Positions 13,165-26,903 of a stretch of 34,236 bases of DNA are shown piece by piece. The translations under genes and the position numbers were made by a program. The notes beneath the pieces were generated by a model. It was given only the letters and a program-made list of their open reading frames with translations, was not told the DNA's origin and searched no databases. How positions within the stretch are numbered: position 1 is the first letter of the stretch; each line of letters begins with the position of its first letter. The DNA lies in assembly GCA_946479615.1 (NCBI GenBank), contig CAMLGR010000034.1:1-34236 (forward strand), read 5' to 3'. Origin of the DNA: an uncultured Bacteroidota bacterium (lineage in GTDB: Bacteria; Bacteroidota; Bacteroidia; Chitinophagales; Chitinophagaceae).

Positions 13165-14109
13165 CTACTGAATTTCCTTGCGTAAATACTTTTTAAAAAT
13201 TCGGACTGTCAGGCGGTTCAGATCCCGGTTTGGATTGTTGGGATCCTTGCCTCCGGCTGTATAGTAATCCAGGCTATCGCCCCCTCTTTTCTGATACCAA
13301 AGCTTACCAATATACTTTTCCGTGATGGTATCCGGTTGTGTTATTCTCCGCAAATTATTCAGCCTGTTTTTATCTAATGGCCACACATCACCCACTTTGC
13401 CAGGAGAATCGCATAATACTTGTACGTAGTGATCATTAACCCAAACCATACATTCTTGTTGTCCGCTAATCCCTGACGATTTGCTTCCCGTGTTGCCAAA
13501 ATAAATTGTCGCTCCTGTTATTAGTAGGATAATGGCCACCGCTATCAATCTCCATCTCTCTTTGACGAAAGTGAGAATAACAGTAATAATATTATTATCG
13601 CCCTTATTATCACTTTGTCCATACACAGGCTCAGGCAGCGCTATAGTATCGGCAGGCTCGTGACTTTCTAAATGTGCACCATTCACATCTTCTTTAGTTA
13701 TAAGCTGGTCTCCCTTATCGATCCCCTCCCCAATTAATAGATCCTTATCCACTTCATAATTGTATTTATCATCATACGGCCGTTTAGGAAAATCTAATAA
13801 CCAACCCAGCAACTCAATATTCTTATCCTCTGTAGCATCGGTACCTCCTTTCAAAAAATTCACCAGGGGCCTGAATTTATCAATATCAATATTTTCTATT
13901 GTCCTCAAAAGGTCTGCTTCGCCATAAACACCAAAAAAAGATGTAAGCATGCCTTGATCCTTTCTCAGAAATCTTGACCTGTAAACTGAAACACACTCAT
14001 CTCTTATTTTACTTGGCTTTGGCTGCAGCAGTCGCAGCGGAAGATCGCTTTCGCTTTTCTTTTGATTATAATACCTAACAATGGCATCCAGGTAATTTTT
14101 ATAAATCAT
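13165..14109 (-). CDS. membrane-anchored protein of unknown function; paralogue A of a two-member family
   Basis: 314 residues. The N-terminal domain (residues 1-120) is shared with the protein at 18835-19626. The common core includes RDECVSVYRSRF, SFFGVYGEADLLRTIENIDI, DKFRPLVNFLKGG, NIELLGWLLDFPKRPYD. An acidic linker follows, then one TM helix (about 187-205, RWRLIAVAIILLITGATIYF) and a C-terminal domain rich in aromatic residues (CMVWVNDHYVQVLCDSPGKV, GKLWYQKRGGDSLDYYTAGG). Topology is inferred as N-domain cytoplasmic, C-domain exported. I do not recognise the family. It is convergent with the receptor gene and divergent from the small-peptide/kinase unit. Confidence 0.75.
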   Translation of the reverse strand: MIYKNYLDAIVRYYNQKKSESDLPLRLLQPKPSKIRDECVSVYRSRFLRKDQGMLTSFFGVYGEADLLRTIENIDIDKFRPLVNFLKGGTDATEDKNIELLGWLLDFPKRPYDDKYNYEVDKDLLIGEGIDKGDQLITKEDVNGAHLESHEPADTIALPEPVYGQSDNKGDNNIITVILTFVKERWRLIAVAIILLITGATIYFGNTGSKSSGISGQQECMVWVNDHYVQVLCDSPGKVGDVWPLDKNRLNNLRRITQPDTITEKYIGKLWYQKRGGDSLDYYTAGGKDPNNPNRDLNRLTVRIFKKYLRKEIQ

Positions 14110-14817: not shown

Positions 14818-16530
14818 TTGAAAGTTTATCTGCTTTTATTCCTTGTATTAATTGCTTGCTCCTGCGTAAAGGAGGGTCCAAAAAATGCTGAAGCAACGCA
14901 AAGCCCTGCTTCACTGGATTTTCAAAAAGCAGAATATTTTAAAGATTCTATCGATCAAAAAGATTCTGCTTTTTTATATTATAATAACGTCACCAAGAAT
15001 TCGAAAGACAGGCTTCTTGTCGCAATAGCGTATGCTAACATGGCAACAATACAAAGGGAGGCAGGAGACTTGTTCGGCGCACAGGAAACTGCTATCGCTG
15101 GCCTACAGCTTCTCCACAAAGATAGCTCCCGGCAACGTTATTGCATGGCTTCACTTTACAATACCATAGGACGGGTCAATGTGGAATTAAAGAATTTTGA
15201 TGAAGCAATCAGGTATTATAACCTTGTACTTGAATTTTCGGATGACGAAAATTTCAGAAATACTTGCCAAAATAATATTGCTGTAGCGCTTCGTGAAAAA
15301 GGGGACTATGCCGGAGGGTTACAGGTCTTGCTCTCAATCAAAGTTCAGCCGGATGAACAAATGCCTGCCTATGCAAGAAGGACCACTAATCTGGCCAGCG
15401 CAAAATGGAAAGCGGATAAAAATTTCAATCCTGTCCCGGACCTGCACAAAGCATTGGACATACGTATTCATGAAAAGAATGATATCGATATAATAGCCAG
15501 TTATAATCATCTTTCGGATTACTATTACCTGACAAATAATGCCGATTCTTCCCTCTTTTATACAAGAAAAATGTATGCCCTTGCCCAAAAAGTAAACAGC
15601 GTGGAGGACCAAACAGATGCCATTCAAAAACTAACAGATTTGGTGTCTCCCCAAGAAGTCCGCTCACTTTTTAAACGATATAAATTTTTAACCGACAGTG
15701 TTCAAACCGCCCGAAGTGCAGCCAAAAACCAATTTGCTGCAATCAGATATGAATCACAGAAAAGCAAAACCGAAAATTTACTACTGCAGGAGGATAATGC
15801 TCAGAAGAAACTGCAGATTCTACGTCAACGAATTTTCGTTTATGGAAGTATTTTACTGGCGGTGCTGATCGTAGGTGGTGCTGTTTGGTGGTATCGTAAA
15901 AAAAGAAGGCAGGTGGAATTAAAATCCCAGATGGCCATTAGGGAAAGTCGCCTGAAAATCTCGCAAAAAGTGCACGACACTGTGGCTAACGGGCTTTATC
16001 GTATCATGAGTGAGATCGAATATCATGAGAACATTGAAAAAGATCCGCTACTGGACCAGATTGAAGAACTTTATGAACGTTCCAGGGACATTTCCTATGA
16101 ACCCGTAGAAACAGAGAAAAATATCACCGGGCATATAAACCATATTTTGGATTCATTCGCCACACCTGCTACCAAGATATCGGTAGTTGGCAACCAGAAA
16201 GATCTGTGGACAGATGTTCCATCCTCAGTTGTCAAAGAACTTGAACAGGTATTGCAGGAGCTAATGGTAAATATGAGGAAACACAGCGGTGCCCGGCATG
16301 TCGTTCTGCATTTTTCAAAATCCGCCGGCCGGCTTGAAATTCTATATAAAGATGACGGTCGTGGATTTCCATCAAATTTCAAAAAAGGAAATGGGCTGAT
16401 AAGTACGGGAACCCGTATAAATCAGGTCGGTGGGCAAATTAATTTCACGGATGAAACTGCCAACGGTGCAGAGATCAAAATCATTGTTCCAATTTTAGCA
16501 TCGAATGATCAGAAAAGTCTTAATAGCTGA
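14818..16530 (+). CDS. TPR-containing lipoprotein sensor histidine kinase
   Basis: 570 residues. The start is TTG at 14818, chosen because it is followed directly by a lipoprotein signal (MKVYLLLFLVLIAC, Cys14); the next ATG would lose it. Periplasmic part (about 30-335): TPR-like helical repeats (for example YNTIGRVNVELKNFDEAIRY). TM helix about 340-358. The cytoplasmic kinase has a HisKA_3-like dimerisation helix with phospho-acceptor His386 (KVHDTVANGLYRIMSEIEY). The HATPase domain has N-box ELMVNMRKHS (Asn485), G1 DDGRG (512-516) and G2 GNGL (524-527). The response regulator overlaps its 3' end by 26 bp. The signal sensed is unknown; peptides or membrane partners are plausible for TPR sensors. 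Confidence 0.93.
   Translation: MKVYLLLFLVLIACSCVKEGPKNAEATQSPASLDFQKAEYFKDSIDQKDSAFLYYNNVTKNSKDRLLVAIAYANMATIQREAGDLFGAQETAIAGLQLLHKDSSRQRYCMASLYNTIGRVNVELKNFDEAIRYYNLVLEFSDDENFRNTCQNNIAVALREKGDYAGGLQVLLSIKVQPDEQMPAYARRTTNLASAKWKADKNFNPVPDLHKALDIRIHEKNDIDIIASYNHLSDYYYLTNNADSSLFYTRKMYALAQKVNSVEDQTDAIQKLTDLVSPQEVRSLFKRYKFLTDSVQTARSAAKNQFAAIRYESQKSKTENLLLQEDNAQKKLQILRQRIFVYGSILLAVLIVGGAVWWYRKKRRQVELKSQMAIRESRLKISQKVHDTVANGLYRIMSEIEYHENIEKDPLLDQIEELYERSRDISYEPVETEKNITGHINHILDSFATPATKISVVGNQKDLWTDVPSSVVKELEQVLQELMVNMRKHSGARHVVLHFSKSAGRLEILYKDDGRGFPSNFKKGNGLISTGTRINQVGGQINFTDETANGAEIKIIVPILASNDQKSLNS
16403..16447 (+). promoter_or_regulatory. third copy of TACGG-N4-CCGTA with weak -7, inside the kinase gene
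   Basis: TACGG-GAAC-CCGTA lies at 16404-16417. At the same spacing as the two intergenic copies, TAATTTCA starts at 16440 (TAnnTT, two mismatches to TAnnTTTG). It lies 58 bp upstream of the regulator ATG and could be an autoregulatory promoter. Because it is inside a coding region it is the weakest of the three. Confidence 0.35.
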
Positions 16531-17170
16531 GGATCACGAAAGCATCAATATATCTGTTCAAAAGGCCCTCGAAGAACTCGGGGTTAAAGAGGTGGACTAT
16601 GTGTACTATTGCGATGATGCCCTGTTAAAAGTCGAAAATGAAAAAAAAGCCGGCCGATCTTACGATCTCCTCATTTGTGACTTATACTTCGAACAGGATT
16701 ACCGTGCGCAAAAGATATCCGGAGGGACGGCCCTGATTTCAGCGGCCAGGCAGATTCAGCCCGAGGTAAAGATCCTTGTTTTTTCCGCGGAGAGCAAGCC
16801 CGCAGTAATTGATTCACTGTTCCGCATTCACAACATCGACGGATATGTCCGCAAAGCGAGAAATGATGTAAAGGAGCTGCAGGCTGCATTTGAAAAAATA
16901 TCCCGGAACCAGCAACACTACCCGAAACATATAGCTGATCTGGCAAAACATCAGCACTCACACAACTTCACCGATTTTGATATTACAATTATCTCCCTGC
17001 TGGCCCAGGGAATGCCTCAAAAAAATATCCCCGAATATCTCCAGCATCACAAAATAAAACCTTCCGCGTTAAGCAGTGTAGAAAAACGTCTCAACCTGAT
17101 TAAAAATGTATTCGGGTTTTCTAAAAATGAACAGTTGGTGGCGTTTTGCAAGGATATGGGGATAATATAA
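16505..17170 (+). CDS. response regulator with receiver and divergent LuxR-type HTH domain
   Basis: 221 residues; starts inside the kinase gene, a usual coupled arrangement. Receiver domain 1-130: acidic pocket AED (Glu9, Asp10), phospho-acceptor Asp59 (LLICDLYF), switch Ser94 (VFSAE), conserved Lys117. The C-terminal 150-221 aligns loosely with the LuxR/GerE HTH: DFDITIISLLAQGMPQKNIP corresponds to LTxxExxILxLIAxGxSxKEIA, SSVEKRLNLIKNVFGF to the recognition-helix end, and EQLVAFCKDMGII to ELVRxAxxxGLI. Such HTHs bind short palindromes as dimers. The palindrome right after its stop codon is the best candidate operator. Confidence 0.9.
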   Translation: MIRKVLIAEDHESINISVQKALEELGVKEVDYVYYCDDALLKVENEKKAGRSYDLLICDLYFEQDYRAQKISGGTALISAARQIQPEVKILVFSAESKPAVIDSLFRIHNIDGYVRKARNDVKELQAAFEKISRNQQHYPKHIADLAKHQHSHNFTDFDITIISLLAQGMPQKNIPEYLQHHKIKPSALSSVEKRLNLIKNVFGFSKNEQLVAFCKDMGII

Positions 17171-17215
17171 TTACGGATTCCCGTAAAAATGCTGCCAAAA
17201 TGAAGAATACTTTTG
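17171..17215 (+). promoter_or_regulatory. putative response-regulator operator plus TAnnTTTG promoter (copy 1)
   Basis: TTACGG-ATTC-CCGTAA (17171-17186) begins directly after the regulator stop codon. Exactly 21 bp later is TACTTTTG (17208-17215), a perfect TAnnTTTG -7. The same arrangement and spacing occurs at 19957-20001. The palindrome covers and extends upstream of the normal -33 position, as expected for an activator. It would drive the SHOCT-protein gene at 17374. Confidence 0.7.
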
Positions 17216-18834: not shown

Positions 18835-19626
18835 TTAGATCGCCTTCTTTTGATGCTGCCAACAAAAGCCACCTGGTCTTGCTTTCCGGGAGCATTGAGT
18901 TTTCTTCTTTGTGATTGCCTGGCACTGCCCGTAGATACTACTGGATGGCGTTTTCACCCGGTTCTGTGAAAACTTGAAATTATCTTGCTGACTTACAGAT
19001 CCCTTAGTATCGCTCTCACTACGAAACACAGAACTATTCAGGTTGAGATAGTCCAGGGTTACAGTAAACAATGCAATCATCAATAGTACAAATAATATTT
19101 TTCTCTTTACCCGTGAGCTCACCAAATTTCCAGATGGCTTTTGCTCCGCTGCCGGTCTTGATGATCCCCTGGTTACGGCAGATAGTAGCTTCTTAAGACC
19201 GGTCTTCATGTTTGGTCTACCATTGCCGCCCACCTGAGGTTCGTCCACCGGGAAAGGCTGATTCAACCCACCATATATTCCGTTATGATCAAATGGCCTG
19301 TCTTTAAAATCAATTAGCCACGCCAATAACTCAACATTCCTTACATCCGTCTCTTTACTCCGGCCTTCGATAAAATTGATCATCGGCTTGAACTTATCAA
19401 TATCGCAACGCTCAATCACCTGAAGATAGCTTCTATCATTTTGCGTATGCCCGAAAAAAGCGGCAAGTATCCGCTCATCCGTTTTTCGGAAACGCTCCTT
19501 GTAAATAACTGTACATTCTCTCCTCACACTTGCAGGCGTAAGGGAAATTAAGTTGAGAGATATCGTATTTGAAGTCACCTTATCATGGTATGCCTTCAGA
19601 ACTGCCCTGAAATAATCTTTAAACAT
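18835..19626 (-). CDS. membrane-anchored protein of unknown function; paralogue B with Cys/His C-terminal motif
   Basis: 263 residues from ATG 19626 (an upstream TTG at 19653 adds only nine). The N-terminal domain (1-118) is homologous to the protein at 13165-14109: RRECTVIYKERF, AAFFGH, VIERCDIDKFKPMINFIEG, NVELLAWLIDFKDRPFD. After a variable linker there is one TM helix (about 175-192, KRKILFVLLMIALFTVTL). The C-terminus is CQAITKKKTQCSRKARPG followed by GFCWQHQ, a compact Cys/His motif like the DUF5763-type 'CQ-x-T-xx-G-x-QC' tails, possibly zinc-binding. So the two paralogues keep the sensor/adaptor half and exchange the far-side domain. Confidence 0.75.
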   Translation of the reverse strand: MFKDYFRAVLKAYHDKVTSNTISLNLISLTPASVRRECTVIYKERFRKTDERILAAFFGHTQNDRSYLQVIERCDIDKFKPMINFIEGRSKETDVRNVELLAWLIDFKDRPFDHNGIYGGLNQPFPVDEPQVGGNGRPNMKTGLKKLLSAVTRGSSRPAAEQKPSGNLVSSRVKRKILFVLLMIALFTVTLDYLNLNSSVFRSESDTKGSVSQQDNFKFSQNRVKTPSSSIYGQCQAITKKKTQCSRKARPGGFCWQHQKKAI

Positions 19627-19956
19627 GTCAGATTTTTTTAATATTGTTACCAAAGTCAGGAATCCCTGTCAGGTTTTCGGTATTCGACCAGATATTGGAA
19701 TTATAAATCATTGTAGAACGGATTATACCAGCAGGCACCTTATTCCGGGTTATTAAGATATTACTATCTACGGAGCAAGGCTCAAGGTGATTTCATAAGA
19801 GTTAAGATTAAGATAGCAGATAATCATTCAAGGAAGCAGGCATCTGCCTAAAACTCCAATTTTAACTGGCAAGAAAAGTTCCTGCCTGAACTTCGCCATT
19901 CATTCCAGACAACCCTGTAAGTTAAGAATTTCTCTAATTTTTGTTCATCTGCGCTA
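19627..19956. other. intergenic region upstream of the seven-gene operon
   Basis: No gene is seen here. It should contain the promoter of the minus-strand paralogue gene, but no clear TAnnTTTG is visible on that strand. A small palindrome AGGCA-TC-TGCCT occurs near 19838-19850. The rightward promoter with its operator begins at 19957. Confidence 0.4.
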
Positions 19957-20001
19957 TTACGGTTTCCCGTAAAAAAAATTTATACCCTGAATCTATCTTT
20001 A
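19957..20001 (+). promoter_or_regulatory. putative response-regulator operator plus -7 element (copy 2), promoter of the DUF4407/channel operon
   Basis: TTACGG-TTTC-CCGTAA (19957-19972), then exactly 21 bp, then TATCTTTA (19994-20001), one mismatch to TAnnTTTG. Palindrome, spacing and the A-run after it match copy 1 at 17171. It is the only promoter candidate found for the operon starting at 20123 and gives a leader of about 115 nt. Confidence 0.7.
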
Positions 20002-20122: not shown

Positions 20123-20608
20123 ATGCTTTTACTCAAAAAGCTTTTCGATTTCCGTAAACCAGGGTTCCTGCACCTTGATTATATTGATATGGTAGTCGAA
20201 GAAAAAATACTCTTCCTCGTTTCCTGGAAGTCAAAAAGGCATCACAAAGTCAAAATCTCCCCACTTAATAAAACCTGTTTTAATTATGAAACTGCCATGG
20301 TGCTGAAAGTCCCTGCCCATACCACGGAGTTAATAATAACTATTCATTCCTTTTGGAGAAAACGCAGGTATTGCGTATCGCTTAAGAAAGTAAAGCTTGA
20401 TAAAAAAACGGCCCAACACCTTGTCATGAGATTCAAGCCTGTAAAAATGCTAAGGCTAAAAACGCCGGTAGCCAATTCTGTACGCACTCTTTCGGATACT
20501 ACCCTATCGTTTATAGTTCTGGAGAAAAGAAACTTTAAAATCATCACCCCCTTTCTGTCTATTAACACAGAAAAGTTAACATATATCAACCAAACCTATC
20601 TATTATGA
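20123..20608 (+). CDS. beta-rich basic hypothetical protein, first gene of the operon
   Basis: 161 residues, strongly basic, no signal peptide or TM helix. Predicted strands alternate throughout (KILFLVSWKSKRHHKVKISP, TTELIITIHSFWRKRRYCVS, LSFIVLEKRNFKIITPF). The family is not recognised. Its stop overlaps the ATG of the DUF4407 gene (ATGA), so the two are translated together. The likely role is a cytoplasmic partner of the membrane proteins that follow. Confidence 0.7.
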   Translation: MLLLKKLFDFRKPGFLHLDYIDMVVEEKILFLVSWKSKRHHKVKISPLNKTCFNYETAMVLKVPAHTTELIITIHSFWRKRRYCVSLKKVKLDKKTAQHLVMRFKPVKMLRLKTPVANSVRTLSDTTLSFIVLEKRNFKIITPFLSINTEKLTYINQTYLL

Positions 20609-21852
20609 ATAAGCGAGATTATTATCCCGAAAAGAAAGCCGGACCAATCATGCGCCTTTTTTGGAAGGCTGCTGGTGCTGACAGGTACATTCTTGAACGG
20701 AGCACCTATGGAGATCAGATTAAGTATCTGTGCCTGGGAGGGATAATTCTCGCAACAGGTCTCATGGCAGGTCTTGCTGGCGGTTACGCTTTCTATACCA
20801 TATTCGAACCCCGGGGCAATGCAATCAACTCCTTCCAGACAGCAAAGGATATTCAGGGTATTTATGATGCCATACACACGCCTACTATGATCAAAGCGAT
20901 CATATTCGGGATTATCTGGGGGTTGATAATCTTTAACATTGATCGTTTTATAGTAACCAGTACCGGCAAAGGTGACGGCACAGAAGATATCACAGGCAAG
21001 GAACTCAAGGGCGCTCTTCCAAGAATCGTTATGGGAGCAATCATTGCATTGACTATTTCAAAGCCAGTGGAAATACGAATGTTCAAAACAGAAATTGATG
21101 TAAAACTTCATGAAAAGCAAATTGAACAACAACAAATTTATAAAGCCGGGGTAGATTCCGTTTTTAATAGTGAAATAGAAAAAAAAGAAGCGACGATAGA
21201 CAAACGATTAACCAGAATTTCTCAACTTGAAGGTATTAGCGATGTGCTAAAAGCAAATATTGCGTACGAGACCGGGCACGGCGATTGTAAATCGAAATGC
21301 ATAGAGTATAAAAGTCAATTAGCAGCAAATGAGGCAGAAATTGCCTCCCTGAAAGCCGATCCAGAATATATCCGGGTAAAACAAAGCTTAGACACTTTAG
21401 AAATAAGGCGCAAAGAAAAATTAGCAGATTCAGAAAAGGTAGCTGCTGGTTTGGATGGCCTCCTGGAACGTATTAAAATAGGCCATGAAATTTCCGGATG
21501 GGTTATTTCTTTATTCATCACCCTGCTATTTATGGCAATCGAGCTTACGCCAATCTTCTTTAAGCTGATGCTTATCAAGAGCCCGTACGATTATATGGAA
21601 GAAAATATCAAGGAACTTATCAAGGCCGAAAACGGGATAGAAATAAAAGCCAATTACTACCAGGACAAAGAAGGCCATGAACGGGATCTTGTGATCAACC
21701 ACCAGGTACTAATGCTATTAAAAGAAAAGATACAAATACTGGAAGCGCAAAGCCAGTTAAGCGAGGAAGCACTCAAAAGCTGGAAGGAAAAGAAGAAGGA
21801 CGAAGTGCGCCAAAACCCAGGGGATTATATTAACGAAGAAAAAGCCGGATAA
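20605..21852 (+). CDS. DUF4407 membrane/coiled-coil protein
   Basis: 415 residues matching the DUF4407 family. The N-terminus FWKAAGADRYILERSTYGDQ leads into TM1 (GGIILATGLMAGLAGGYAFY). TM2 is AIIFGIIWGLIIFNIDRFIV, TM3 is LPRIVMGAIIALTISKPVEI with the conserved SKPVE, and a long coiled coil follows (about 165-290). TM4 (GWVISLFITLLFMAIELTPI) precedes a C-terminal charged helix. A CKSKC motif sits in the coiled coil. Function is unknown for the family; the topology suggests a scaffold or gated membrane complex. A divergent relative follows 2 bp downstream. Confidence 0.9.
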   Translation: MNKRDYYPEKKAGPIMRLFWKAAGADRYILERSTYGDQIKYLCLGGIILATGLMAGLAGGYAFYTIFEPRGNAINSFQTAKDIQGIYDAIHTPTMIKAIIFGIIWGLIIFNIDRFIVTSTGKGDGTEDITGKELKGALPRIVMGAIIALTISKPVEIRMFKTEIDVKLHEKQIEQQQIYKAGVDSVFNSEIEKKEATIDKRLTRISQLEGISDVLKANIAYETGHGDCKSKCIEYKSQLAANEAEIASLKADPEYIRVKQSLDTLEIRRKEKLADSEKVAAGLDGLLERIKIGHEISGWVISLFITLLFMAIELTPIFFKLMLIKSPYDYMEENIKELIKAENGIEIKANYYQDKEGHERDLVINHQVLMLLKEKIQILEAQSQLSEEALKSWKEKKKDEVRQNPGDYINEEKAG

Positions 21853-21854
21853 CC

Positions 21855-22862
21855 ATGTCAAAAGAAAGATATACATGGCTCATCAAGAGAAAAAATTTTA
21901 TTCAATTAATTGGTGCAGAATATCATTTGTTGAAGAAATCCGGATCAAATTCTATCTGGAAGTTCTATATAGCAGCCGTATTAATACTCCTGATCCTTCT
22001 TCTCACTATTTGTTCGATCTTCTATGCGACGGAAATGCTGTTTCATATACCCCAGATTGAAGTATTACTGGCTGGGTTCATCTCCTTTCTATTCGTTTTC
22101 ATATATATATTCCTGCTTAATACTTTTTCAAAGCAAGTGCTGGCTGATAAAAAAGATAAAAAAGGAATATCCTGGTGGGAAAAAATCAGGCTGGCAAATG
22201 TATTACGGATGGGTTTTGTTGCTTTCATGGCTTTTCTGATTGCCAAACCTGTTGAAGTCTTTGTTTTTCGTGAGCAGCTCGAGCCGAAGGTCGAGGAATA
22301 TAAAAGCAGTATGTTCAACAGCTACAGGAAGAAAATTGAATCTATAAATGACCCTGATATTCATAAGATTCAACACGCATTATCATTTTATAAGATCCAA
22401 TCTTTGAAATATACTTCGTCAGCCATAAATGATCAAATTAAAAATCTCGACAACCAATTATCAGAAATATTAAGTAATCAGGCAAGCAATCTCACTGTGG
22501 CAAAACAAAGAATAGAAAACTCAGACTACCTCATTTTCCGGATACAAGCAGTATCTCATTATGCCCTTTCGTGGTTGATTTGCGTCATAGTCATTCTCTT
22601 GTTTCTTATTCCTGGTTCATTAATATATTCTATCTCCACCAATGATATTTACTATAAACTTAAACAGGATTGGGAAAGAAGATTGATTTCCGAAGAACAT
22701 ATAGCCTTTTGTAAGTGGTATACTGCCATTTTTAAGGATAAGTTCAATCTCGATCGAACCTGCTATTCTGTATTTGAGGATCCTCCCTTTAATGAAAGGC
22801 GAAAGGCACAACCATCGTTTCAAATTCAGTCTGATTTTATAAAGAAATTCAGTGGTGAATAA
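21855..22862 (+). CDS. divergent DUF4407-like membrane protein
   Basis: 335 residues with the same plan as the preceding protein: TM1 (AVLILLILLLTICSIFYATE), TM2 (LLAGFISFLFVFIYIFLLN), TM3 ending in the same signature (FVAFMAFLIAKPVEVFVFRE against ALTISKPVEIRMFKTE), coiled coil, TM4 (LICVIVILLFLIPGSLIYSI), then a cytoplasmic helix starting NDIYYKLKQDWE where the first protein has SPYDYMEENIKE. I infer an old duplication that now forms a two-subunit complex. Standard family searches may miss it because only this framework is conserved. Confidence 0.75.
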   Translation: MSKERYTWLIKRKNFIQLIGAEYHLLKKSGSNSIWKFYIAAVLILLILLLTICSIFYATEMLFHIPQIEVLLAGFISFLFVFIYIFLLNTFSKQVLADKKDKKGISWWEKIRLANVLRMGFVAFMAFLIAKPVEVFVFREQLEPKVEEYKSSMFNSYRKKIESINDPDIHKIQHALSFYKIQSLKYTSSAINDQIKNLDNQLSEILSNQASNLTVAKQRIENSDYLIFRIQAVSHYALSWLICVIVILLFLIPGSLIYSISTNDIYYKLKQDWERRLISEEHIAFCKWYTAIFKDKFNLDRTCYSVFEDPPFNERRKAQPSFQIQSDFIKKFSGE

Positions 22863-22868
22863 CCTTTT

Positions 22869-24800
22869 ATGAATCCCAATAAAGACTACTATAAAATCCT
22901 TGGTATTCCCAAAGACGCAAAAAAGGAAGAGGTAAAAGCAGCCTGGCGCAAACTTGTCATAAAACACCATCCCGATAAAAACCCTGGGAATCCCGGATAT
23001 GAAGATAAAATCAAAGAAATAAATGAAGCTTACGAGGTATTGTCTAATGATATAAAACGCTATGTGTATGACGAGTATATAAGTAATGAAGAAAATTTAA
23101 GGCGGCAACAGGCCAAAAATAAACCAAACCAAAATCAGACAACTACACCCCAAAAAAATAAACGTACCTATGAAAAGAAGACTACGATAAGAACAGAGCG
23201 AAAAATATATATCAAAGGAACCATTTCCGTCAAATACTGGGCAGAACAGGAAAACGATAATATATTGTCGGTACTTAAGGAGGTTAATTACCGGATCAAT
23301 CCTGTTTCTACAGAAGCTACGATAATTGCATCCGACATACACGCTTTTGACCCCCCAGTTCATTTTCAAAAAGCATATAGCCAGGCTGATCTATTCAAAT
23401 CACCATTACCCCAACCTGTTACATGCAAAGTGGTGACATCCGCCGGTGAGGAGTTTTATAGGCTTCGGCTGGAAGAAATCCGGATCATTAACCCTATACT
23501 CACAGATATTACTAAATACGAGAAGCAAAGTCTTGGTACATTAAAAGGAGAATTTTTTGCTTATATCTTACGGGTCGATGAGAAAGAGATCATCGAGACA
23601 GTAACCGAATGTTTTGGTGAGACTGGCAGGGTTGAAACAAAAGCAGAAAATGATAATAATTTCATAAGAAAAGAATATTATCATAAAGATTGCACCACTT
23701 TTTGGAGCCCCTGGGAACAAATAAAAAAACCATCCTCCAAAAGAACTTATAAAAAAACAAGCTCTTCTACGCCGGCAAATGCCTTTACGACAGAGGATTG
23801 GGCACAATGGTCGTGGATACCCCTATTATTCCTGGGCCTGCTTATATGGCCAAAGTTCTTTCTCGGTTTATTGATTTTCGGATTGGTTTTATTTATTCTG
23901 TCGTTGGGAGTTACATTCTTAGCCCGCCTTATTCCGTTCCTGTTATTATTTTTCATCGGCTTTTCGATTTATGCCGCATTCAAATCGGGCAACGGGGGAA
24001 TGCCGGTTGTCAAGAGAGGCTGGAAACCATCGGCAGATTCCATGAGAACTACAAAAGATCCTATTGTAAAGGATACAACCAAAGGCAACAGATCTGATAC
24101 GATAATCAATCAATTTATCGCATGGAAGGATTATGACAGCACGGCTTACTCTATTACCTTATCTGTTTTGGCAAATGACGTAAGAAGTTCAGCACTTATT
24201 CATAATAATATAGAATTACCGGGGATGACAGCTACGTTAAGGCCGGTATATGAATACCTGGAAAACAATGACACGTCCAAAATGAGACGTACTTATGCTG
24301 CTTTCGATTCAATCAGAAAAGCTAATAATTTAAGTGAGGTGACATTTGCTAAAATGGTTGTATCCTGCATCCAGTCAATTCCCTATTATCTGGTGCTGGA
24401 CAAATCCTGTAGCGACAATTACAATGATGAATTTGTTCACCGCTATTTACAGGAATGCAATAGGGATTGCTGTATTGGGTATGAAAAATTCGGCATCCGG
24501 TCTCCTGTAGAATTTATTAGTGACCTCAAAGGAGATTGCGATACACGCGCCTTAATTATTTATAGTATTCTTAAAAGATTTAACTACAAAGTTGCTCTCA
24601 TAAGCAGTGAGTATTACAGACATGCAATGATTGCCGTGAACTTTGAAAATGAATATGGAATAAATGGATTGTCTATGAACATCAACAATCGAAATTATTA
24701 TCTCTGGGAAACAACAAGTGCTGGCTTCCAACCAGGTCAAATACCAGATGCTAATCGAAATCTATCTTATTGGAATATCGCTTTATTAAATGAAAAATAA
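22869..24800 (+). CDS. DnaJ-domain protein fused to TM region and transglutaminase-like domain
   Basis: 643 residues. A J-domain at 5-70 ([23 protein letters not shown] at 34-36, [12 protein letters not shown]) should recruit and stimulate an Hsp70. Residues about 115-300 form an unassigned beta-rich domain ([34 protein letters not shown]). Hydrophobic helices lie at about 315-375 ([40 protein letters not shown]). The C-terminal domain (about 400-643) has a transglutaminase/papain-like triad pattern: Cys557 in GDCDTRA, His585 in YRHAMIAV, acidic residue in WETTSAG (Glu614). That puts a Cys enzyme-like domain on the far side of the membrane from a chaperone hook. I know of no named family with this order. 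Confidence 0.85.
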
Positions 24801-24805
24801 TAAAA

Positions 24806-25312
24806 ATGAAACCTATTTTGAATCCAGCTATTCTACTGCCGGTATTGTTTATGCTATTACAACTACTTATCGTTTTATTTATTACAATTGCAGCTCTTTC
24901 CCGCCTGAATATTATAAAACCGCCTTTGGGAGGAATTGAATACAGCCAGGCAATTTTCGCTTGCAGCATTCTTTTCTCGGTCTTATTCATCGTTACAGCC
25001 GAAGTCTCTGCCATATTTCAGACATTTAAAACTTTACAGAATCAATCTTCAGGCATTATGCAGCCGCTTGCCGCTAAGTCTGCCCAGTTTTTTATGATCA
25101 TTGTATTCTTTGAGCTGATACTGGCAGGACTGATTCTTCTTTGTAGCAAGATATTTACATGGCTCAATAAAGGAGTAAAGGAAATTGAAGGCGGCAACAT
25201 ACCTGTTTCTCTTATTATGAGTATTATCATCATTGGGCTTTCAATAGTTTTGAAAGCAATGGCTGAAGAGATCATTCAATATATCGTGCCGCATTATCTT
25301 ACTTTCCAGTAA
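24806..25312 (+). CDS. four-TM membrane protein of unknown function
   Basis: 168 residues with four hydrophobic helices (ILLPVLFMLLQLLIVLFITI; AIFACSILFSVLFIVTAEVS; FMIIVFFELILAGLILLC; VSLIMSIIIIGLSIVLKAMA). Short polar loops hold no known motif. It follows the DnaJ fusion by 5 bp and precedes the channel by 9 bp, so it belongs to the same transcript. The family is not recognised; it may be an auxiliary subunit. Confidence 0.8.
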   Translation: MKPILNPAILLPVLFMLLQLLIVLFITIAALSRLNIIKPPLGGIEYSQAIFACSILFSVLFIVTAEVSAIFQTFKTLQNQSSGIMQPLAAKSAQFFMIIVFFELILAGLILLCSKIFTWLNKGVKEIEGGNIPVSLIMSIIIIGLSIVLKAMAEEIIQYIVPHYLTFQ

Positions 25313-25321
25313 TACTAAATT

Positions 25322-26014
25322 ATGAATGAATCACAACAGGAAAAACTTCCTTTATTCCAATTAGTAATAATTGTATTGTCTGTTTATGTCCTGGGGTCTT
25401 TAATTACCTCGACATTCTTTCATTTACCCGTAGAAATTGAAAAACTACTCAACTATATTGACAACGGAATTTGTGTTGTCTTTCTTTTTGACTTCTTTTA
25501 TCGATTCGCGAAAGCCCAGAATAAATTTCAGTTTATGAGGTGGGGATGGATTGACCTGATATCCAGCATTCCCACCTTTGAATATTTCCGGCCCGGGAGG
25601 GCTTTACGATTAATCAGATTATTACGCATACTGAGGGCATTCCGTTCTACCAAGGTGCTGTTACATCATATTTTTAGCAGAAGGTCACATGGTGCATTAA
25701 CAACCGCCATCATTATAGCCATTTTAATGTTGGTGTTTTCATCGATCGCGATCCTTCAGGTTGAAAAGGCTCCCAACAGCAATATTGTATCCGCCGAAGA
25801 TGCACTCTGGTGGGCATATGTAACGATAACTACTGTTGGTTATGGCGACAAATTTCCTGTTACGACAGAGGGGCGACTTATAGCTATGCTCCTGATGACT
25901 GTAGGGGTTGGGCTTTTTGGCACTTTTACCGGGTTTGTGGCATCATGGTTTGTCGGTGAAAAGAAGATTGCCGATTCACAGGAAAAGAGTGAAACGAAAT
26001 ATATCAATTCATGA
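25322..26014 (+). CDS. voltage-gated potassium channel (6-TM, Kv-like)
   Basis: 230 residues. S1-S3 lie within about 10-85. S4 has Arg at every third position (90, 93, 96, 99, 102, 105, 108; core RALRLIRLLRILRAFRS), a full voltage sensor. S5 (AIIIAILMLVFSSIAILQ) is followed by the pore helix and selectivity filter TVGYGD (171-176), and S6 by LLMTVGVGLFGTFTGFVAS. The cytoplasmic tail is short, with no RCK domain. K+ selectivity follows from the filter; voltage gating is inferred from S4. A channel embedded in a DUF4407/DnaJ operon suggests that membrane potential is an input or an output of the system. Overlaps the next gene by 4 bp (ATGA). Confidence 0.95.
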   Translation: MNESQQEKLPLFQLVIIVLSVYVLGSLITSTFFHLPVEIEKLLNYIDNGICVVFLFDFFYRFAKAQNKFQFMRWGWIDLISSIPTFEYFRPGRALRLIRLLRILRAFRSTKVLLHHIFSRRSHGALTTAIIIAILMLVFSSIAILQVEKAPNSNIVSAEDALWWAYVTITTVGYGDKFPVTTEGRLIAMLLMTVGVGLFGTFTGFVASWFVGEKKIADSQEKSETKYINS

Positions 26015-26304
26015 GAATTTCTAAACTTTTATACATTTTCCTTCTTGTCGCTATGTTGCTGCCATTTTCGGCTAATAGCGGAAGTTGTTCAGGCGGGGCC
26101 AATTGCACGGCCTGCTCTTCCTGCAATTATTGCGGACATTGCGCAAAAAGAGGTGGCACATGCAGTGTTTGCCATCATGGCAAATATTCCTCTGGTAATT
26201 ATTCAGGAAATAGTATCCCACGATTCTGGTGGTTTATAATTGCTGGATTTATTCTGTACCTGATGTATACATCAAAAAAGGACAGCAAGAATAATAACAA
26301 ATAA
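26011..26304 (+). CDS. Cys-rich secreted/membrane miniprotein
   Basis: 97 residues: signal peptide (LLYIFLLVAMLLPFSANS), then eight Cys within 30 residues in the order CX5CX2CX2CX2CX2CX6CX2C followed by HH, a Gly/Ser/Tyr stretch, one TM helix (WWFIIAGFILYLMYT) and a Lys/Asn-rich end. The Cys/His cluster could bind metal or form disulfides outside the membrane. It is translationally coupled to the channel gene and may be a channel cap or redox/metal sensor; that role is inference. Confidence 0.8.
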   Translation: MRISKLLYIFLLVAMLLPFSANSGSCSGGANCTACSSCNYCGHCAKRGGTCSVCHHGKYSSGNYSGNSIPRFWWFIIAGFILYLMYTSKKDSKNNNK

Positions 26305-26424: not shown

Positions 26425-26429
26425 TTTCG

Positions 26430-26802
26430 TGGAGCTGGCGGGAATCGAACCCGCGTCCAAACATATTCGCCGAAAGCTTTCTACATGCTTATACCGGTTT
26501 GATTGTTTCGGGAAATAACTGGAAAACCGATCGACCTATTATTTTCTTAGCTGTATAGTCTTAAGCAACCGTCACAGCCTTCGGTTGCAGCATCCTGTAT
26601 TTGTTTTGAGTCGGCGGCTGAGCATGGTAACAGAACAACCGGCTCTGCGGCCCTAATGACTAACTAATCACTGATTAGGCAGCCATGGCATACTGAGTAT
26701 TGCCATTTGAGTTTTGAATATTCAGATTTACGTGCTAATTATCCAACGCACGGCATGCTTACACTCTCAAAGATCTATGCTGTCAAAACCTGTACAGCCC
26801 CC
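26430..26802 (-). ncRNA. ssrA: tmRNA (SsrA)
   Basis: Transfer-messenger RNA for rescue of stalled ribosomes. The 5' end GGGGGCTG (26802) pairs with the 3' end CAGCTCC plus discriminator A (26430); CCA is not encoded. The T-arm GGTTCGATTCCCGCC is standard, and the 5' side has the expected ACAGGTTTTGACAGCAT. The tag frame reads ...GNTQYAMAA and stops at TAA (26677-26675); the resume codon cannot be fixed by eye. Length about 373 nt. The 3' end points at the accessory block, a favoured integration site in many bacteria, but no integrase or repeated att copy was found. Confidence 0.95.
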
Positions 26803-26810
26803 AGAGAAAT

Positions 26811-26903
26811 GTAGAATGCAGAATGTAAAATCTAAAATGTAAAACTGTACAACTCTAAGACTGACCAACTTTTACATTTTAGATTTTATATTCTACATTT
26901 TAC
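26811..26903. repeat. 34-bp-arm inverted repeat between rseP and ssrA
   Basis: Arms 26811-26844 and 26870-26903 match at 31 of 34 positions around a 25-nt loop. The arms are made of reiterated GTA-GAAT / GTAAAAT / CTAAAAT words. The right arm ends 2 bp after the rseP stop codon, so a transcript-end or mRNA-stabilising hairpin is likely. Confidence 0.85.

Follow-up and report, generated by a model that had tools for sequence, protein, structure and literature searches.

The seven-gene locus

The stretch of DNA analysed here, referred to as the window, comprises the 34,236 nucleotides of contig CAMLGR010000034.1 (assembly GCA_946479615.1) from an uncultured member of the Chitinophagaceae. Seven open reading frames (ORFs), named g1 to g7, lie on its plus strand between positions 20123 and 26304, with intergenic gaps of -4, 2, 6, 5, 9 and -4 bp. 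Judged by comparison with other genomes, the first five form one unit, and the conserved operon consists of g1-g5 only. An earlier note, made from the sequence of the window, had described seven close-packed genes at this position that include a DUF4407 pair, a DnaJ-transglutaminase fusion, a voltage-gated K+ channel and a Cys-rich miniprotein. The strand, the spacing (gaps of -4 to 9 bp) and each of these gene assignments were confirmed, as set out below.

The cassette opens with g1 (20123..20608), which encodes a small, soluble protein of 161 amino acids (aa) that is poorly conserved across cassettes and has no match in a Pfam scan; one motif hints at an immunoglobulin (Ig)-like beta-sandwich, which we take as a candidate only. 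The DUF4407 pair is formed by g2 (20605..21852; 415 aa, about four transmembrane (TM) stretches) and by g3 (21855..22862; 335 aa, four TM stretches), a diverged DUF4407-like protein. Both lie above the PF14362 cut-off of 31.3 bits, g2 with 192.9 bits (E-value 1e-56) and g3, more weakly, with 51.1 bits (1.6e-13). Long helices span residues ~161-281 (~120 aa) of g2, between the third and fourth membrane stretches; by positive-inside reasoning, this coiled coil appears to lie outside the cytoplasm. The membrane part of g2 contains strongly conserved residues in alignments. The AlphaFold2 (AF2) model of g2 has a mean predicted local distance difference test (pLDDT) score of 77.7 and gave no match against the PDB at E<=0.001.

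The protein encoded by g4 (22869..24800) joins a J domain (residues ~1-70), a beta-rich domain (~98-280), a membrane stretch (314-375) and a transglutaminase-fold domain (~391-643). The J domain matches PF00226 (2.1e-23) and contains the HPD motif. Not all members have a J domain: HPD was found in 8 of 31 transglutaminase-fold proteins (that of the window and 7 others). For the transglutaminase part there is no Pfam match in the window protein, and the assignment comes from the predicted fold, which resembles the transglutaminase-fold enzymes LapG, TglA, TG2 and PNGase, and from the family, 3 of whose 21 members match Transglut_core at E<=1 (best 3.3e-4). A plain Foldseek search with g4 returned chiefly J domains, with menin at rank 40, and sequence searches of solved structures with queries A5, A2 and A4 gave nothing better than E 0.06. 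The putative active site (C557, H585 and E614, plus Q502) is invariant in 31/31 aligned proteins, that is, in the 33 g4-labelled proteins >240 aa after L044_9 and L050_5, extra genes without the domain, were set aside. As far as the alignment can tell, the active site of the enzyme is under strict selection. The transglutaminase-fold domain is probably located outside the cytoplasm.

The last cassette gene, g5 (24806..25312), encodes a DUF350 (YjfL)-like protein of 168 aa with four TM stretches. At E<=1, PF03994 (DUF350) is matched by 12 of the 21 members of the g5 family (best 9.1e-11), and no other Pfam family is matched by more than two; the window protein itself scores 17.7 bits, under the cut-off of 26.

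Conservation and distribution of the cassette

A search of 396 genomes of the window's order with a g4 profile found the C-terminal part at 21 places and the J domain alone at 11. Loci (L numbers; genomes have G numbers) were mapped in 20 fetched regions and then in 29 more. Across the mapped cassettes the gene order is g1-g2-g3-g4-g5 on one strand. Among 22 tabulated cassettes, g2, g4 and g5 are present in 22/22, a g3-like gene in 21/22 and a g1-like gene in 19/22, all labelled with hidden Markov model profiles that were partly built on these very loci. Order and strand are constant in this set, and intergenic gaps are mostly -26 to +27 bp. An additional gene is found between g3 and g4 in L044, L049, L050 and L060, and behind g2 in L048, which stands outside the 22-cassette table. 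It encodes an OmpA-family protein in L060 and L048, and a protein without good Pfam match in L044 and L050. In L038 and L077, g3 is absent from the profile matches or broken into two ORFs, which may represent disrupted copies or sequencing errors.

To lessen the circularity of the profiles, an independent search with g2 was made in 244 family-level genomes. The scores are bimodal: 405-642 bits in 11 genomes, and <=222 bits in the rest of the 49 genomes with matches. In all six newly found high scorers (G803, G868, G849, G776, G884, G811), g3, g4 and g5 adjoin g2. The cassette is thus patchy within the family (11/244). At 19 mapped loci of stand-alone DUF4407 genes no g4 or g5 gene was found, and weak g1 or g3 profile labels occur at a few of them (L069, L070, L072, L084). 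In a sample of 395 genomes of the phylum, DUF4407 is present in 120 and the g4 C-terminus in only 6, in 4 of them with a strong match; all 4 carry the cassette g2 (in G001 on a separate contig).

Among the best 120 of 325 matches in a protein search with g4, at least 93, the window's own included, cover >=80% of the query. The genera among the matches listed, under their source names, are Niabella, Agriterribacter, Deminuibacter, Terrimonas, Flavipsychrobacter and Pedobacter. A close-relative search of genome contigs gave one locus, in a Chitinophagales metagenome-assembled genome, with g4 74% and g5 73% identical. Pairs of the enzyme and a DUF350-like protein also occur without DUF4407 nearby (L051-L054, L106, L107). 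In L052, an AlkB-like oxygenase and a sortilin-like protein precede the pair. A 19-kb stretch of L048 (3382-9877 and 16143-18353) encodes three transglutaminase-fold proteins and two of the DUF350-like type.

Two-component system and operator-like palindrome

Upstream of the cassette, on the plus strand, lie genes for a sensor histidine kinase with TPR repeats (14818..16530; 570 aa, TTG start in the ORF list; PF13424 1.3e-10, PF02518 2.2e-6) and a response regulator (16505..17170; 221 aa; PF00072 1.7e-8). The TPR repeats follow a lipoprotein-like start (read by eye), so the kinase probably senses outside the cytoplasm. Two paralogues on the minus strand accompany the pair and match the same proteins: w13 (13165..14109), a one-TM partner whose homologues adjoin kinase and regulator at 14 of 17 regulator loci (L089-L105), and w20 (18835..19653), which has a C-terminal DUF5763 stretch (PF19067 3.4e-6). 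Homologues of kinase and regulator adjoin the cassette in L036, L037 and L077; elsewhere the pair occurs without a neighbouring cassette.

The earlier note's view that one promoter region carries a regulator motif is supported; the motif is an operator-like palindrome, TTACGGTTTCCCGTAA, at 19957..19972, ~150 bp upstream of g1. A second palindrome directly follows the stop codon of the response regulator (17171..17186), and a third lies within the 3'-terminal part of the kinase gene (16404..16417), ~100 bp before the regulator start. Exact TACGGN4CCGTA is present in the window at 16404, 17172 and 19958, and these are the 3 sites at <=1 mismatch versus 0.33 expected. A Bacteroidota-type promoter pattern had no match across the window (2.07 expected).

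The palindrome surfaced from a comparison of upstream regions: the 1.20 Mb of DNA fetched contain 46 copies of ACGGN4CCGT, versus 4.7 expected. Of the 22 loci that have a regulator homologue, 16 carry the palindrome at a distance of 92-105 bp ahead of the regulator gene. Genome-wide, WTACGGN4CCGTAW occurs 75 times in 14 regulator-positive genomes (3-12 each) and 23 times in 14 others (0-6 each; 10 regulator-negative, 4 without a regulator test); a reversed control pattern occurs 52 and 38 times, respectively.

For the position of the palindrome, 24 cassettes were compared, G065 (L050) being left out; a genome or window with a regulator of >=50% identity counted as regulator-positive. An operator with <=1 mismatch lies within 800 bp upstream of g1 in 9/9 regulator-positive cassettes (6 exact, 3 with one mismatch) and in 0/14 regulator-negative ones, two of which have only 283 and 333 bp of upstream sequence. 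In G459, whose regulators are 35-39% identical, there is no operator upstream of g1. Random 800-bp windows of the same loci contain an operator-like site in 223 of 4800 cases. Fisher's test gives p ~1e-6 for the association, or 8e-6 with G459 counted as positive, uncorrected for relatedness. On the evidence of these sequences, the palindrome is found with the cassette solely in the presence of a close response regulator. The regulator itself was found in 7 of 11 cassette genomes of the family sample versus 10 non-cassette genomes in a 117-genome sample (p 9e-5, uncorrected for relatedness and from an approximate table, as the membership of the cassette genomes in the 117-genome sample is uncertain).

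Further elements were observed around this regulatory system. Direct repeats ATTCC-N4-6-ATTCC, distinct from the palindrome, lie <=250 bp upstream of 14/18 w13-like genes versus 17 of 1800 random 250-bp stretches; they were seen upstream of 13165-14109 (minus strand) in the window and in L036, L037, L090-L093, L096-L098 and L100-L103. In L069 (2373-14215) a different cluster (DUF4407, PLD-like, two kinase-like and VWA-like proteins) adjoins a kinase, regulator and w13 of the same type, with a palindrome at 2373 before the cluster. A second type of DUF4407 operon (188 aa + 338 aa) is present in L143 (6967-10651) and L098 (5091-6698); in G884 it is accompanied by the palindrome and a paralogue of w13, and in G364 it adjoins the regulator.

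Channel and Cys-rich miniprotein

Directly behind the cassette, g6 (25322..26014) encodes a voltage-gated K+ channel of 230 aa, with matches to Ion_trans (PF00520, 1.5e-22) and Ion_trans_2 (8.6e-16) and with S4 arginines and a TVGYGD filter read by eye. It is followed by g7 (26011..26304), a miniprotein of 97 aa with eight Cys, hydrophobic stretches at 1-27 and 68-87 and no credible Pfam match, which is probably secreted or anchored. Neither gene occurs in any mapped cassette operon. The contig of the closest relative continues beyond g5 without g6 or g7, and its channel, 72-74% identical, is on another contig. A close g6 homologue (E<=1e-40) was found in 3 of 117 genomes. Both genes are thus probably lineage-specific additions, and the single operon of seven genes envisaged in the earlier note is retained for g1-g5 and not for g6 and g7. 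The same division applies to co-occurrence in other genomes, which that note had named as its refutation test: g1-g5 co-occur, g6 and g7 do not.

Homologues of both genes adjoin the same type of two-component system, and so g6 and g7 may share its regulon. For g6 there is one case, one of the three close homologues (67%), directly behind a w13-like gene in L098 of G364, a locus with this type of system. For g7 there are few: g7-like genes lie behind w13 in L099 and, in L105 of the cassette genome G459, behind a distant regulator. These neighbourhoods suggest that g6 and g7 may be optional members of the same response. A Cys-rich/DUF5763 gene is located opposite g1, across the operator, in L081, and another g7-like gene lies outside the operon in the L078 region.

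Behind g7, a transfer-messenger RNA (tmRNA) gene occupies 26429-26801 on the minus strand, its 3' end facing the operon at a distance of ~125 bp. Just upstream of the tmRNA gene is an inverted repeat (26807-26900) with arms of 30 nt that are 93% complementary. A genomic island inserted in ssrA was considered and rejected, as there is no direct repeat of the tmRNA 3' end in the window and a tRNA is present in just 2/25 cassette loci.

Defence genes near the cassettes

The 22 cassettes have 130 flanking proteins, of which 106 were scanned with PADLOC (E<=1e-5); those left out include kinase and regulator genes, short ORFs and a pair of very long proteins, of which the HmaC-like one was scanned separately. 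These 106 proteins matched 113 PADLOC families; family numbers are not gene counts, because a single protein can be matched by many models (the Drt protein by 35). Among the matches listed are Drt4 (8.7e-132), CD-NTase (4e-75), Cas6 and a type I restriction endonuclease (REase). The control set, 101 proteins that flank stand-alone DUF4407 genes at 13 loci, matched 9 PADLOC families (best 4e-18).

The L078 cassette is preceded on the same strand by a caspase gene (PF00656, 1.3e-18) and a TIR-like gene, with an ORF of 112 aa before g1. In L043 the cassette directly follows an HmaC-like ATPase gene and a PD-T4-1-like gene; in L080, Drt4/6 and CD-NTase genes lie behind the cassette, and in L047 a type I REase adjoins it. 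HSDR_N proteins are close to L037, L079 and L081.

Interpretation and alternatives

The chances are evenly balanced that g1-g5 encode a membrane-embedded effector complex, switched on by a dedicated two-component system, whose purpose is most likely defence against phage or competitors. Defence is favoured because of the defence-gene neighbours and the patchy distribution; together with the cassette's own two-component system, the neighbours also lend support to the attack- or stress-responsive character proposed in the earlier note. In such a system the kinase would sense a signal from the envelope or from an infection, and the regulator would bind TTACGGN4CCGTAA upstream of g1. The complex would be built around g2 and g3, the two DUF4407 proteins, together with the DUF350-like protein g5. 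Placed at the outer side of the inner membrane, the g4 transglutaminase-fold domain would cut or crosslink an envelope or invader protein, and a cytoplasmic J domain, where present, might recruit DnaK to gate or assemble it. The products of g6 and g7 would be extra members of the response, gained in this lineage.

Several observations weigh against this reading. Among the seven proteins none matched a family of PADLOC-DB 2023 at E<=1. Defence neighbours are no proof of a defence function, the control loci may be more core-like, and the TIR match in L078 (27.0 bits) is just under the cut-off of 28. The plasmids searched with g2 gave no match; in viral contigs, query A5 found nothing, A4 found one weak DUF4407 protein, and there was no transglutaminase relative. 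The model of g4 has a single helix (328-373) with an ambiguous number of membrane passes, which makes its topology tentative.

Further points concern the control of the cassette. The palindrome is not commoner than the reversed control in every genome; its number alone is a weak signal, and therefore its position carries the claim of control. As 14/24 cassettes are without regulator and operator, this control is a trait of part of the family. The sites counted for L036 and L077 are just behind the regulator gene and are therefore not independent of the regulator locus. The site within kinase genes encodes a conserved stretch, read as N-T-x-x-R-I, and may thus partly reflect protein conservation. 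The link of g7 is weakened by its homologues (tblastn, E<=1e-6), present in 7 of 117 genomes and in none of the 15 regulator-positive ones, in a survey that missed the g7-like gene of G318; moreover, in L105, one of its two cases, the kinase and regulator homologues are distant (31% and 35%).

A less probable explanation, though one that deserves to be taken seriously, is envelope-stress maintenance of the kind found in phage-shock (PSP) neighbourhoods, in which the sensor pair would detect membrane damage and the complex would stabilise or repair the envelope, with no specific enemy. The grouping of g5 with DUF350 and a kinase with TPR repeats that probably senses outside the cytoplasm are in line with this, as is the K+ channel behind the DUF350-like gene in the window, an association described for PSP-type operons (PMC11237479). 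Pfam finds no PspA, CesT/Tir, ATP-grasp or Toastrack domain among the seven proteins (the flanks were not scanned for these as a whole), however, and patchiness (11/244) and defence-gene neighbours are less expected for housekeeping repair. It is rather improbable that the cassette serves LapG-like processing, with an extracytoplasmic transglutaminase-fold protease that would cleave surface proteins or adhesins in response to a signal and thereby govern attachment or gliding; the structural resemblance, with a Z score just above 8, is a fold-level match only.

The tight gene spacing in the window, and the fact that in other genomes homologues of g6 and g7 adjoin a two-component system of the same type, would agree with the seven-part machine of the earlier note, in which the voltage sensor of the channel gates the chaperone/transglutaminase part. 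The absence of g6 and g7 from all mapped cassette operons, that of the closest relative included, speaks against it, as do the rarity of close g6 homologues (3/117 genomes) and the existence of cassettes without g6; this machine is accordingly very improbable. A chance cluster of unrelated membrane genes has a negligible probability: g6 and g7 behave as late additions, but for g1-g5 the idea is refuted by collinear cassettes at 22/22 loci and by the operator-regulator match.

Going further than the effector-complex reading, we tentatively propose, at somewhat short of even chances, that the cassette is a new kind of bacterial immune module. In it, a two-component system with a small regulon would induce a membrane complex in which a J-domain/transglutaminase-fold enzyme is combined with a DUF350-like protein and two DUF4407 scaffolds, and proteolysis or crosslinking at the outer face of the inner membrane would stop phage or competitors. 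As part of this proposal, and with like reserve, the enzyme/DUF350-like pair, which is also found away from DUF4407, could be regarded as the portable heart of the module. If this is true, a transcriptionally induced, envelope-located protease or crosslinker joins the bacterial defence or stress repertoire, DUF4407 proteins acquire a functional context and DUF350-like proteins a new one, and an Hsp70 co-chaperone domain is linked with a probably extracytoplasmic enzyme in one polypeptide. With the operator-like sequence in hand, the regulon is open to simple reporter assays. DnaJ was recently reported to be required by bNACHT25 to sense phage (PMC12169576), and the J domain in the cassette offers a testable parallel.

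Comparison with known systems

Searches of an open-access literature library found no description of this cassette, and no paper that joins transglutaminase to anti-phage defence. No described system known from these searches shares the cassette core, in agreement with the earlier note's view of an undescribed membrane system; the domains themselves are not new.

PSP-type operons combine a YjfL-family 4TM DUF350 protein, a K+ channel and a peptide ligase, as described by Ravi et al. (2024; PMC11237479). They resemble the locus in the DUF350-like 4-TM protein, the membrane setting and, for the window only, the K+ channel in the operon. By contrast, the seven window proteins are without PspA, CesT/Tir and ATP-grasp by Pfam and include two DUF4407 proteins and a transglutaminase-fold enzyme. 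Nucleoside triphosphate (NTP)-dependent conflict systems have rare transglutaminase-like peptidases in some cases and DnaJ fusions in others, as reported by Kaur et al. (2020; PMC7159879). Transglutaminase-like and DnaJ parts are thus shared, and the L078 cassette is preceded by caspase and TIR-like genes; however, Pfam identifies none of the seven proteins as an NTPase, and DUF4407 is absent from the main text of PMC7159879.

Stand-alone DUF4407 proteins of Bacteroidota belong to the same Pfam family, but score <=222 bits versus 405-642 for the cassette g2 and have no g4 or g5 at the 19 mapped loci. With Zorya (ZorA/ZorB) the cassette shares a membrane protein with a long coiled coil (g2), and the OmpA-family one-TM protein in two cassettes (L048, L060) is reminiscent of ZorB. 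Unlike Zorya, g2 and g3 have no PADLOC match (no separate ZorC/ZorD search was made), and the window cassette is without an OmpA protein. With LapG and other transglutaminase-like cysteine proteases, g4 has in common the transglutaminase fold, a Cys-His-acid site and a location probably outside the cytoplasm. It differs from LapG-type proteases in that it is membrane-anchored, carries a J domain in some cases, is part of a five-gene operon with DUF4407 and DUF350-like proteins, and has Glu as the third residue of its site in 31/31 proteins.

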